A DNA stretch of 61,093 bases from Bacteroidaceae bacterium. Lineage in GTDB: Bacteria; Bacteroidota; Bacteroidia; Bacteroidales; Bacteroidaceae. The stretch is taken from NCBI GenBank assembly GCA_024401305.1, contig JAKSLI010000014.1:1-61093 (forward strand). Direction: 5' to 3'. Made by a program: the position numbers and the translations under genes. Below are positions 4,715 to 59,456 of the stretch, in pieces. How positions within the stretch are numbered: position 1 is the stretch's first letter; each line of letters begins with the position of its first letter. The notes beneath the pieces are model-generated. The model worked only from the letters and a program-made list of their open reading frames with translations. It did no database searches and was not told where the DNA came from.

Positions 4715-5224
4715 TTGACTGAAAAAGAATGTCATAAAATATACACGAAATATTGTGGCCGACTGACCGCAGTATGCTCTCGTTATCTCTCGAATGAGGA
4801 AGATGTGAAGGATGTCCTACAGGATAGTTTTCTGAAGATATTCCGCAACATCGATGACTTCACGGCGAGAACGGACGGCTCCTTGGAAGCATGGATGAAG
4901 AGGATAGTGGTGAACGAATCGTTGAATTTCCTGAGAAAGCGGAAACATCTGGTTTTTATGGACAATATCAACGATATAAGTTCGGAAGATGTTGCAGAGA
5001 CAGACATCGGTGGTGTGCCGTTTGATGTTATTCTTAATTTGATTCGCCAACTGCCAGACGGCTTCAGGACTGTTTTCAACCTCTTTGTGTTCGAGCAGCG
5101 AAGCCATAAGGAAATAGCGGAATTGCTTGGAATAAAAGAAAATACTTCCGCCTCGCAGTTCTTTAGAGCGAAGAAAATGTTGATAGAAAAAGTAGAAAAA
5201 TATAAACTCCAAACAGATGAATAA
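4715..5224 (+). CDS. ECF-type RNA polymerase sigma factor
   Basis: 169 residues. The start is TTG at 4715; the frame upstream closes at a TAG (4652), and no ATG lies at the natural N-terminus (MTEKECHKIYTKYCGRL). Region 2 (YLSNEEDVKDVLQDSFLKIFRNIDDF, about residues 28-53) contains the DVLQDSFLKIF core-binding signature. Region 4 (about residues 110-160) has LPDGFRTVFNLFVFEQRSHKEIAELLGI with a helix-turn-helix. It should direct RNA polymerase to a small regulon. The stop overlaps the next gene's ATG by 8 bases, so translation is coupled to its probable anti-sigma partner. Confidence 0.9.
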   Translation: MTEKECHKIYTKYCGRLTAVCSRYLSNEEDVKDVLQDSFLKIFRNIDDFTARTDGSLEAWMKRIVVNESLNFLRKRKHLVFMDNINDISSEDVAETDIGGVPFDVILNLIRQLPDGFRTVFNLFVFEQRSHKEIAELLGIKENTSASQFFRAKKMLIEKVEKYKLQTDE

Positions 5225-6572
5225 CGACTGGATAAATAAACTCAGAGAAGAAGAGCAGCATTTTGAGATGCAGGCTCCGAAAGGGCTGTGGGAAAATATC
5301 CAGCGTAATCTTACGAAGGATGTTGATTCTGCAGACAATTCCAATGCAGAAAAAGGTGGTAGTGCAAAAGGAAATCTTTGGCTAAAGCGAATCTTTATAG
5401 CTGCGGCTGCTTGTGCTCTTGCATTGGTTTGCTTCAAACTGACAGTGGGTAAAACAGACGCATTGAAAGAAACGGAAATTGCCAAGGCAGAGAAAACCAT
5501 CGATGCTCGCATAAAAGAAATTGGCGACCAAACAGAGACGGTAGAAGAACAATCTGTAACTGCCCAAATAGCTGATACAGAAACCTTTGTGGCGAAGGCA
5601 GAAACCAACAGAGTGAAGACCGTTACGCCTGAGCTTCCTGAAAAAGCTATGGGTGTTGCAAATGAACCTTCTCATGTCAATGCAATAGTAACTGACGGAA
5701 ACAAGGAAACGGTACAAACTAATAATTCCGGAGAAACTGTAGCTACCAACTCAGAATACGCCTCTCCATCTACTCCAGAATCCACTTCCAAACCGACTCC
5801 AAAATCGGAGAGTGTTTTGCTTGCCAATGCAGAACCAACAAAAAAATCCACGCAGTCAGTTCCTCTTCCGCGCAAGAACTCTCTCGGCGGAATTTCCCTC
5901 TCTACGCAAACGGCATTTGCCATGGGCAACAATCCGTCAAGCTCATACGTCGTGTACAATTTTAATTACAGGGCAGCACCTGCTGTAAGCACCCCAGATG
6001 CACCACATACCACGTTCAAACACGACAAGGTACCAGTAGGATTCAGCTATAAGGACAAACATAAGATGCTGTTCTCGCTGGGCTTGCTCCTGAATGTTCC
6101 TGTGTCGGAAAGAATGAGCTTCGATTGCGGAGTAGCATTAACGAAGACCGAAAAGGAAAGCAATATTCTCAACGGTAGTTTAACTCATGTGGTGAAAACT
6201 GATTATGATTACATAGGCGTTCCTGTAGCCTTGAAGTATGACGTTGTAAAGACCAAGAACCTTTCTGTATATGGCAAGGCTGGCGGAAAAATAGACTTCA
6301 ACTACGCTGCCGACGAAACTTCCGAAACATGGGAGAAAGGACAGCCGGAATCATCAAAAATGAGTTACGACATAGACAAGACGAAGAATCCGCAGTTCTC
6401 CTTGTCGGCTGCTATTGGAGCACAATGGCTTTTGGCAAAGCATCTCGCTCTCTATCTTGAACCAGGCTATGTTTACTATATAAACAATGGTTCCAGTGAT
6501 GTTTATTTTAACGAAAAACCTCATAATTTCAATATAAACTTTGGCGTTCGCGTGCCAATAATAAATCATTAA
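5217..6572 (+). CDS. Anti-sigma-like protein with C-terminal outer-membrane beta-barrel domain
   Basis: 451 residues. Residues 1-55 are hydrophilic and cytoplasmic-looking (MNNDWINKLREEEQHFEMQ). One membrane segment follows (IFIAAAACALALVCF, about residues 61-75). Residues about 80-230 are a low-complexity Thr/Ser/Pro/Glu-rich linker. Residues about 230-451 look like an 8-stranded outer-membrane beta-barrel, with alternating strands, GLLLNVPVSERMSFDCGVAL and a final strand NFNINFGVRVPI. The layout suggests one chain spanning both membranes: the N-terminus holds the sigma factor and the barrel senses the envelope. The 8-base overlap with the sigma gene supports the partnership. No binding residues are proven. 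Confidence 0.75.
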   Translation: MNNDWINKLREEEQHFEMQAPKGLWENIQRNLTKDVDSADNSNAEKGGSAKGNLWLKRIFIAAAACALALVCFKLTVGKTDALKETEIAKAEKTIDARIKEIGDQTETVEEQSVTAQIADTETFVAKAETNRVKTVTPELPEKAMGVANEPSHVNAIVTDGNKETVQTNNSGETVATNSEYASPSTPESTSKPTPKSESVLLANAEPTKKSTQSVPLPRKNSLGGISLSTQTAFAMGNNPSSSYVVYNFNYRAAPAVSTPDAPHTTFKHDKVPVGFSYKDKHKMLFSLGLLLNVPVSERMSFDCGVALTKTEKESNILNGSLTHVVKTDYDYIGVPVALKYDVVKTKNLSVYGKAGGKIDFNYAADETSETWEKGQPESSKMSYDIDKTKNPQFSLSAAIGAQWLLAKHLALYLEPGYVYYINNGSSDVYFNEKPHNFNINFGVRVPIINH

Positions 6573-21446: not shown

Positions 21447-21600
21447 AGCCCCCTATCCCCTTCCTTTCAGGACGGGGAAAATAGATTATCTCAAAGTAAA
21501 GGTCTTTTCAATAAAGAATAAATAAAACAAAATAGACTCCATTTCCCTCTGGAGAATAAACATTTAGCTCCCCGTCCTAAAAGGAAGGGGATGGGGGAAG
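21447..21600. repeat. Inverted pair of C/G-run palindromes (copies A and A')
   Basis: Copy A (21447-21478) has stem TCCCCTTCCT/AGGACGGGGA. Copy A' (21566-21596) has CCCCGTCCT/AGGAAGGGG. A and the complement of A' agree over about 30 bases with two or three differences. They enclose 86 AT-rich bases. The unit fills the whole pta-ackA gap: A starts 4 bases after the pta stop and the unit ends 5 bases before the ackA ATG. Confidence 0.8.
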
Positions 21601-41253: not shown

Positions 41254-41296
41254 TACTCCCCTCCCATTAGGGGGAGGGGCTAGGGGTGGGGCTTTT
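41254..41296. repeat. C/G-run palindrome, copy B
   Basis: CCCCTCCC (41258-41265) pairs with GGGAGGGG (41272-41279); the GGGGTGGGGC tail touches the malQ stop. Read on the minus strand it is GCCCCACCCC then the hairpin then GTAATT, closely matching copy E after purA. Confidence 0.75.
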
Positions 41297-43742: not shown

Positions 43743-43889
43743 GCCCCCCTCTAACTCCCCCCCTTATGGGGGAGGACCTTAAATTAGATTTGCTAATTGG
43801 GGGTAAAAGGTCTGATTATAAGGATTTACAGTTTGTAGTTGCTGATTTCTCCCCTCCCATAAGGGGGAGGGGTAGGGGGTGGGGCTTTT
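43743..43889. repeat. Inverted pair of C/G-run palindromes (copies C and D)
   Basis: Copy C (43743-43780) reads GCCCCCCTCTAACTCCCCCC on plus, then TTAT and GGGGGAGG. Copy D (43850-43889) is inverted: complement GCCCCACCCCCTACCCCTCC, then CCCTTATGGGAGGGGAG. They enclose about 70 bases. The unit fills the gap: D touches the MFS stop and C lies 5 bases before the malQ ATG. Confidence 0.8.
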
Positions 43890-49482: not shown

Positions 49483-49521
49483 AGCCCCCTAACCCCCGAA
49501 GGGGGAATTTTTAATACTCTT
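49483..49521. repeat. C/G-run palindrome, copy F
   Basis: GCCCCCTAACCCCCGAAGGG and on to GGAATTTTTAAT: stem CCCCC/GGGGG with loop GAA, 5 bases upstream of the eda ATG. A second hairpin follows (ACTCTT 49516-49521 with AAGAGT 49527-49532, then eight Ts), which looks like a plus-strand terminator although no plus-strand gene is present. Confidence 0.75.
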
Positions 49522-49588
49522 GGGGGAAGAGTTTTTTTTGTTTCATACACAAAAAACGTTATGCTTTTATTGTGTAGAGAACGTGTTT

Positions 49589-49978
49589 TTATTTTAGTTG
49601 TTTTACAACATGATTGAAGATTTCATCAAGAACAGAAGGTAAATCGGAAAAGACTTTTTCGTTAGTGAATCTAATAACTCTATAGCCTATTCTTTCTAGA
49701 TCTTCTGTTCTTAAGTAATCTTTTATCTGTTGTTTTTCTTGCGAGTGATAGCCACCGTCAATCTCTATAATTGTTTTCGCTTTTATGCAAATGAAATCCG
49801 CGATATAACATCCAATGATGTGCTGTCGCCTGAAGTGAAGTCCCCATGGATTTCCAACGAGGTAGTTCCAAAGTAAATCTTCCGCTTCTGTCTGATGATC
49901 CTTGTTTTCTTTTGCAAATTTCTTCAACAATCCATGATACAATGGGTTTGCTGTCTTGAATTTATATTCATTATACAT
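49589..49978 (-). CDS. DUF559-family endonuclease-like protein
   Basis: 129 residues from the ATG at 49978 (a TTG three codons earlier is an alternative). The fold type is that of Vsr-like PD-(D/E)xK nucleases: TEAEDLLWNYLVGNPWGLHFRRQH, then IADFICIKAKTIIEIDGGYH with the acidic D...E-x-D set, and a C-terminal DLERIGYRVIRFTNEKVF. DUF559 proteins are presumed to cut DNA, but no reaction is proven. It interrupts the kdgK-eda pair, has no link to uronate metabolism, and is enclosed by inverted palindromes. Together these suggest that it came in with the repeats. Confidence 0.85.
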   Translation of the reverse strand: MYNEYKFKTANPLYHGLLKKFAKENKDHQTEAEDLLWNYLVGNPWGLHFRRQHIIGCYIADFICIKAKTIIEIDGGYHSQEKQQIKDYLRTEDLERIGYRVIRFTNEKVFSDLPSVLDEIFNHVVKQLK

Positions 49979-50001
49979 AGACTGCAAGTATTATGGTGTT
50001 C

Positions 50002-50009
50002 CAAAATTA
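50002..50009 (-). promoter_or_regulatory. -7 box of the DUF559 gene
   Basis: The minus strand reads TAATTTTG across 50009-50002, 24 bases before the ATG at 49978, inside the repeat-bounded unit. No TTTG is seen at the -33 position. Confidence 0.5.
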
Positions 50010-50021
50010 GCGAAAAGACAA

Positions 50022-50057
50022 TTAAAAGCTCCCCCCTTCGGGGGATGGGGGGCTTTA
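50022..50057. repeat. C/G-run palindrome, copy G
   Basis: Plus strand: AAAAGCTCCCCCCTTCGGGG then GATGGGGGGCTTT. The complement is AAAGCCCCCCATCCCCCGAA then GGGGGG, matching copy F in order and loop. Its edge overlaps the kdgK stop codon (50055-50057). Confidence 0.75.
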
Positions 50058-59420: not shown

Positions 59421-59456
59421 AGCCCCACCCCCTCCCCCCTATGGGAGGGGGGTAAT
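59421..59456. repeat. C/G-run palindrome, copy E
   Basis: AGCCCCACCCCCTCCCCCCT, then ATGGGAGGGGGGTAATTT. Stem CCCCCTCCC (59428-59436)/GGGAGGGGG (59443-59451). It starts one base after the purA stop. Confidence 0.8.

Follow-up and report, generated by a model that had tools for sequence, protein, structure and literature searches.

Introduction

A small nuclease gene lying between two inverted palindromes, in the gap that separates kdgK from eda, raises the question of whether gene and palindromes are neighbours by accident or parts of one element able to move. The locus belongs to the window analysed here, that is, the whole stretch of 61,093 nucleotides, which comes from the 3.2-Mb draft genome (86% complete) of a Bacteroidaceae bacterium. 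In the initial annotation the arrangement had been taken for an autonomous element with gene-less derivatives, and this proposal is supported, since gene and ends behave as a unit and similar gene-less pairs are found. In fact, what the gap holds is very likely a mobile palindrome-nuclease unit, and an element with a single nuclease gene seems to have dispersed among the genomes of Bacteroidota, both between genes and in frame inside essential ones. The in-frame insertions, the likeness of the ends to BoxC/TM repeats and the kinship of the nuclease with homing endonucleases are points that go beyond that annotation.

The unit between kdgK and eda

The whole element (49483-50054, minus strand) measures 572 bp and fills the gap from the kdgK stop codon to 5 bp before the eda ATG, its extent being based on the inverted ends and on the lack of DUF559 at all but this one of the 30 same-genus eda loci analysed. 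On one side lies a KDG-kinase-like protein, all of whose NCBIfam matches fall below the cut-off, and on the other the KDPG aldolase eda, which is above it. The Vsr-like PD-(D/E)XK nuclease gene (49589-49987, minus strand) encodes 132 aa from a TTG start or 129 aa from the ATG at 49978, and its GC content is 34%, against 46% for the window. The open reading frame is as initially described, and its assignment to DUF559 was borne out by the Pfam profile PF04480 (E=7.7e-30; 103.4 bits against a curated cut-off of 20.6).

At both ends of the unit there is a C block on the outside, followed by a hairpin and then by a short AT motif, with the minus-strand DUF559 gene between the two ends. End 1 (49483-49505, plus strand) shows an outer C foot at 49485-49489 and a C5-GAA-G5 hairpin at 49493-49505; its inner motif AATTTTTAATA (49506-49516, plus strand) resembles the inner motif of many gene-less copies (AACTTTTAATAG), and a second small hairpin directly after this end occupies 49517-49531. 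End 2 (50031-50054, minus strand) is an inverted copy of end 1, with its hairpin at 50031-50044, its outer G block at 50047-50052 and its inner motif, GCTTTTAATT on the minus strand, at 50020-50029. When end 1 (AGCCCCCTAACCCCCGAAGGGGGAATTTTTAATACTC) is set against the reverse complement of end 2, which reads AGCCCCCCATCCCCCGAAGGGGGGAGCTTTTAATTGTC, the inverted similarity, which had been put at about 40 bases, is confirmed as an imperfect one over about 35-40 bases. DNA folding of the ends gave competing hairpins only, a triplex being a candidate structure. A known RNA or leader was rejected as an identity for the palindromes, since Rfam returned four weak matches, all of them under the gathering scores, and a defence system was likewise rejected, the window protein having only weak PADLOC matches (E about 3e-4).

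Palindromes around DUF559 copies

Eight DUF559 matches were located in the same genome, seven stand-alone and one inside a 985-aa frame. All seven stand-alone copies are bounded by inverted palindromes on both sides, the gap between grpE and dnaJ (gene names assigned by eye) being one of their sites, and by eye no palindromes were seen in the stretch inspected around the eighth. The comparison was extended to 135 copies, comprising these seven, 47 from relatives and 81 from the best 80 of 545 GTDB matches, a sample which is biased toward relatives of the seven proteins and does not include some partial matches; loci L008, L033, L034 and L035, whose hits were all shorter than 200 bp, were left aside as well. 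By pattern, foot-hairpin ends were present on both sides of 75 copies, on one side of 27 and on neither of 33, so that 102 of the 135 are bounded on at least one side; by source, both-sided copies amounted to 7/7 in the own genome, 20/47 in the relatives and 48/81 in GTDB. Since the 135 copies contain overlapping and near-identical records, clustering at 90% identity leaves 127, of which 73 are both-sided. The enrichment that the initial annotation had proposed looking for at the DUF559 genes of relatives was therefore found, both-sided ends arising by chance in none of 5,000 shuffled flanks and in 1 of 5,000 intervals drawn at random from the own genome.

A pattern-free inverted-repeat score exceeded the 99.5th percentile of shuffles in 103/134 copies. 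The same threshold was passed by 18% of mismatched flank pairs, taken from different copies, because all ends are somewhat alike, and this score alone is thus not specific; within a copy, the ends resemble each other more than they do those of other copies (AUC 0.87). Moreover, CCCCCNNNGGGGG occurs 118 times in the own genome and its reversed control not once, while the end pattern gave 34 calls in 458 kb of this genome (two of them double) and 0 in one shuffle. Over 60 genomes, the numbers of palindromes and of DUF559 genes were only moderately correlated (rho 0.40 with p=0.002, against 0.22 with p=0.09 for a control pattern), genome G016 having 3 DUF559 matches and no C5-G5 palindrome. As regards orientation, which could be assessed for 62 stand-alone copies, 49 of these point the same way as both neighbouring genes. 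Locus L054 carries two DUF559 copies (1444-1821 and 4896-5273) about 3.5 kb apart, with domains 96% identical; similar CCTCCCTTTAGGGAGG palindromes precede both, and the two may stem from a recent duplication.

Occupied and empty sites between genes

An empty kdgK-eda allele, also proposed as a check, is in fact the common state within the genus. Among 30 same-genus eda loci (out of 80 matches in 100 genomes), DUF559 was present in the own genome only, and no palindrome was found upstream of eda in the 28 other loci with a recognised start, the own genome being the sole carrier of 29. The gap before dnaJ gave the same picture, with DUF559 in one of 30 same-genus loci (out of 35 matches in 40 genomes), again the own genome, which is also the only one of 28 loci with a recognised start to have palindromes there. 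Gene and palindromes therefore occupy sites as one unit, and occupied and empty sites coexist.

These observations bear on one alternative, namely that the palindromes are common terminators or regulatory hairpins which surround a small gene by accident. Hairpins of G/C type between the genes of an operon do resemble terminators, and Rfam offers no better identity; nevertheless, the palindromes are missing from the same junction in the other same-genus loci analysed, their co-occurrence with DUF559 is far above chance, and 13 of 47 end calls sampled in the own genome fall within frames that stay open for 80 codons or more to either side. Terminators or regulatory hairpins are thus hardly credible as an explanation.

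The kdgK-eda gap has a second occupant: in L072, a more distant member of the Bacteroidales, it holds a DUF559 gene 42% identical to that of the window, with a palindrome on one side only, which means that the gap was used at least twice, or long ago. Judged by the homology of both neighbours, the 135 copies represent at most 86 site groups, an upper estimate since copies that could not be compared were counted separately; the largest group comprises 14 copies, some of whose records are nearly identical. The target-site duplication typical of classical IS and MITE elements was not consistently present over 74 copies, the single high cell (terminus -4, k=4, 3 against 0.37 expected) being one of 28.

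Other small genes are also seen in this gap. In the relatives L164, L167 and L175 it contains another small ORF, near inverted AT-rich repeats, which together are perhaps a second element type at the same place; the ORF presumably encodes a protein of the four-helix-bundle/23S-IVP kind, which it resembles. A short conserved ORF (MKQFEYKV...) is found there in several relatives (L157-L161, L171, L172 and others).

Copies inside genes

In 45 of the 135 copies the DUF559 domain lies in frame within a long open frame, an internal copy being defined by at least 90 open codons before the domain and at least 60 after it; a further 17 are fused to the downstream gene and three to the upstream one. The hosts, checked with Pfam for part of the set, include LeuRS, ValRS, IleRS, MetH, RecG, UvrA, a radical-SAM/TRAM protein (MiaB-like), HAM1, CCA polymerase, MazG, an ABC protein, GH31, guanylate kinase and YgbB/IspF, and in several of the scanned cases DUF559 splits a host domain. 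The palindromes are translated as linkers, such as APLNPPEGG and PPSGGLEGA. Because of these in-frame copies, terminators are already hard to hold as a full account. Inteins were rejected, no splicing (Hint) domain being listed in 28 proteins carrying or joined to DUF559 (Pfam E up to 0.001).

Two DUF559 stretches occur in one IleRS gene (L078), and two copies in one metH-type frame (L077). In L187, a gene-less palindrome (SLTPVPSPTGEGS) is translated in frame within a DegT aminotransferase gene, and the DegT aminotransferase of L185 contains the in-frame peptide ...VRQAHQP...VPELVEG, another palindromic repeat read as protein.

The leuS gene was followed in the genus of genome G054, where 22 of 25 genomes gave matches and 21 alleles could be resolved: six are occupied at one site, 14 are empty and one (L260) is a gene-less remnant, in which a degenerate palindrome stands without the nuclease gene and the frame is kept. 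Compared with the empty allele, about 33-37 bp of host sequence are missing where the insert stands. A tree built from the leuS flanks joins L249, which is occupied, and L252, which is empty, as sisters with full support, and its well-supported branches require at least three changes. The inserts have diverged roughly as far as their flanks, so that this site alone is no proof of recent transposition; slow vertical inheritance accompanied by loss would explain the pattern no less well than transposition, and so would homing. Between L249 and L252 the flanks are 85-97% identical per 75-bp window, and a recent co-conversion tract around the L249 insert was not seen in this comparison.

The main rival of nuclease-driven mobility is homing by host recombination, in which DUF559 would be a free-standing or embedded homing endonuclease cutting element-free alleles, to be copied by the host, and the palindromes would be passive or repair scars, with no role as transposon ends. 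The patchy occupancy of one identical leuS site, including the sister pair, speaks for it, as do the repeated occupation of the same junctions, by 14 copies in the largest group, and the nature of the nearest solved relative of known function, which is itself a homing endonuclease. Against it, the many distinct sites and host genes, together with the many gene-less inverted pairs, need dispersal to new places, and the ends within a copy match each other. Homing as the only process is accordingly considered unlikely, and homing and nuclease-driven transposition may be stages of one life cycle.

Gene-less pairs and cognate nucleases

The inverted pairs without a gene that had been annotated in the pta-ackA and MFS-malQ gaps were both found: one at 21449-21597, between pta and ackA (each over its cut-off), and one at 43744-43884, flanked by a transporter gene with a weak match to GPH and by a malQ-like gene whose 4-alpha-glucanotransferase match is just below the cut-off. 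Single gene-less ends lie at 41258-41291, in the gap between the malQ-like and an alpha-galactosidase-like gene and of the type of L003, and at 59423-59452, between purA and hisS. Throughout 458 kb of the own genome, ends less than 250 bp apart were arranged L-R in 13 cases, R-L in none and in the same direction in three; the set of 47 end calls used for the pairing and frame analyses includes a few double calls and the two DUF559 ends.

Gene-less pairs with similar ends thus exist, and in the own genome the nuclease type matches the end type. Among its seven copies, protein identity tracks end similarity (Mantel r=0.66, 0/2,000 permutations), the correlation being weak (r=0.135, 0/500) over 70 non-redundant both-ended copies. 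Of 47 gene-less end calls, which include a few doubles, 38 are nearer to the nuclease copies of their own genome than to equal-sized draws from other genomes. The nine exceptions include the pta-ackA pair, for which the nearest nuclease-bearing end found belongs to another genome (similarity 0.70, one end), by eye probably L114. The parallel with REP/RAYT pairs which the initial annotation had drawn, with a different nuclease family, therefore holds in detail, nuclease and end types being paired and gene-less ends matching their own copies.

The same data serve to weigh a further alternative, in which something else moves the palindromes and DUF559 is cargo, or a host-useful trimmer of foldable repeats. 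A cellular role for a DUF559 protein is conceivable, as a part in very-short-patch repair has been hypothesised for VsrA of Caulobacter (PMC12907096), and there are palindrome-rich genomes with no DUF559 match (77 and 0 in G027, 51 and 0 in G014, both genomes being incomplete). Against this, L-R pairs with an interior of 250-3,000 bp number only two in 458 kb, namely the DUF559 unit of the window and L232 654-1896, in which the left member, overlapping an end called in the opposite direction, is probably a miscall. A Y1/RAYT transposase was rejected as the mover, the 86%-complete genome having two weak PF01797 matches, neither of them bounded by palindromes (a lone palindrome lies on one side of one of them, roughly 600 bp away). 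With the cognate pairing of nuclease and end types also standing against it, this passenger or caretaker role is improbable, more so than homing.

The nuclease and a proposed mechanism

The predicted structure of the window nuclease (pLDDT 87) has a fold of the Vsr/I-Bth0305I type, according to the model, the closest solved structure of known function being the homing endonuclease I-Bth0305I (3R3P), followed by Vsr. The unit thus shares with homing elements a fold akin to that of known homing enzymes and, as the leuS alleles show, the coexistence of filled and empty versions of a single site among close relatives; it differs from the I-Bth0305I/Vsr nuclease group in that no intron was seen, palindromes are present at both ends and gene-less derivatives exist. 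Residues D64, E75, D77 and H81 are conserved in 133-135 of the 135 copies and, from what is known of the superfamily, we take them to be catalytic.

That the nuclease drives the mobility of the unit is the reading we favour, and we regard it as rather more probable than the opposite; to the same degree, the unit would be a small autonomous mobile element with a Vsr-like nuclease as its sole gene and inverted foot-plus-hairpin ends of triplex type. Under this mechanism, the nuclease would recognise and cut the ends, with the DNA folded as a hairpin or a triplex, and would also cut a loosely specified target. Host repair might then finish excision, or copying, and insertion, leaving no target duplication and possibly replacing a stretch of the host, as with the 33-37 bp in leuS. 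Gene-less pairs could be mobilised in trans, and copies would persist only where they are harmless, either in operon gaps or in frame, with the palindromes serving as Pro/Gly-rich linkers. Several observations weigh against this mechanism: the copies with a foot-hairpin end on one side or on neither, the lack of a consistent target-site duplication, the single site and flank-like divergence of the leuS copies, the weak agreement of nuclease and end similarity over the 70 copies, the moderate correlation of counts among genomes and, in E. coli, repeats that do not enclose ycjD.

Comparison with known systems

REPIN/RAYT systems combine REP doublets with an IS200-like Y1 transposase (PMC3116915, PMC3733652). 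According to these descriptions, the present elements are similar in having small inverted palindrome doublets, several types per genome, each type beside its own single-domain nuclease, and many gene-less copies. The differences are a Vsr-like PD-(D/E)XK nuclease instead of a Y1 HUH transposase, C/G triplex-type ends, commonly AG[CA]CC, instead of GTAG-tagged ones, and several related nuclease copies per genome, also inside genes. In the outer 12 nt of 177 ends, GTAG or CTAC was found in only 4 and 5, and CGTC/GACG in 0. If our reading is true, it would represent a REPIN/RAYT-like pair on another nuclease fold.

Knowledge of BoxC/TM repeats goes back to the 1990s. The structure described for BoxC/PIT/TM repeats, with a C stem, a short loop, a G stem, 2-3 nt and a second G stem (PMC4666352), is like that of the ends studied here, and BoxC/TM repeats also form inverted pairs, with a copy number varying strongly among strains (PMC4666352). 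In that survey of 2015, 3610 TMECO copies in inverted pairs were counted in 262 proteobacterial genomes (PMC4666352). The published TMECO consensus (CCCTCNCCC stems) had no exact match in the window and 20 stretches, nor in the flanks of the 135 copies, and the ends are for this reason called BoxC/TM-like and not TMECO. Furthermore, TMECO is reported to be always intergenic in K-12 (PMC4666352), whereas copies of the kind described here also occur in frame. The parts of the survey drawn on here report no link of TM repeats to mobile elements, assign no specific function to BoxC/TM repeats and propose no mechanism of spread (PMC4666352), and the words nuclease and ycjD occur 0 times in its main text. 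A link between DUF559 and palindromes was not found in the passages on DUF559 consulted in the open-licence literature, where a combined search returned PMC4666352 only.

The E. coli protein YcjD is a DUF559 protein, and BoxC/TM-like repeats lie 3' of ycjD as an L-R pair of their own which does not enclose the gene. With at least 80% of the query covered, ycjD is present in 3360 of 5426 E. coli genomes (5323 with a match of any extent). The sapF-fabI interval was rejected as a clean empty site, an efflux gene adjoining sapF in the 9 ycjD-minus loci inspected. Among copies of other phyla in a plasmid collection (8 of 38 matching records), C/G palindromes lay, by pattern, within 300 bp in 7/8; an L end upstream and an R end downstream were called in 2/8, in both cases among several palindromes, and in 5/8 the sole called palindrome was downstream and faced the opposite way, L207 having inverted ends on both sides by eye. 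The enclosing arrangement is consequently not established beyond Bacteroidota. In L207, a plasmid of Synechocystis sp. B12, the DUF559 gene adjoins, or sits inside, a split BREX PglX-type methyltransferase gene.

Taken together, these likenesses allow a wider reading, which we advance tentatively, holding it somewhat less probable than the nuclease-driven mobility of the unit itself: a class of elements would use a Vsr/I-Bth0305I-type nuclease as sole enzyme on its own triplex-forming ends, settling in the gaps of operons and also, in frame, in essential proteins, there as a "parasitic domain" that is not spliced out; the BoxC/TM-like repeats of Bacteroidota, Proteobacteria and Cyanobacteria would be its gene-less derivatives, and YcjD-type proteins the lost parents of BoxC. 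The DUF559 element thus suggests a possible agent behind the scattering of BoxC/TM-like palindromes. With a cognate nuclease, matched gene-less copies and empty sites at hand, the question of their spread can be put to the test in Bacteroidota as well as, by way of ycjD, in E. coli K-12.

As regards the in-frame copies, two further systems are comparable. Rickettsia palindromic elements are palindromes inserted in frame in protein genes and are not known to carry a nuclease gene; going by this description, the in-frame position is shared and the nuclease gene is the difference. The ShiLan domain, as described in PMC11855218, is also a mobile nuclease-coding insertion in a host gene, with no in-frame stop, no splicing domain and a patchy distribution; unlike the present elements, it encodes an HNH nuclease in another reading frame and its host is a phage methylase, and terminal palindromes are not mentioned for it in the part of that article drawn on here. 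What the DUF559 copies suggest, in this context, is that essential enzymes can carry a non-spliced selfish nuclease domain.
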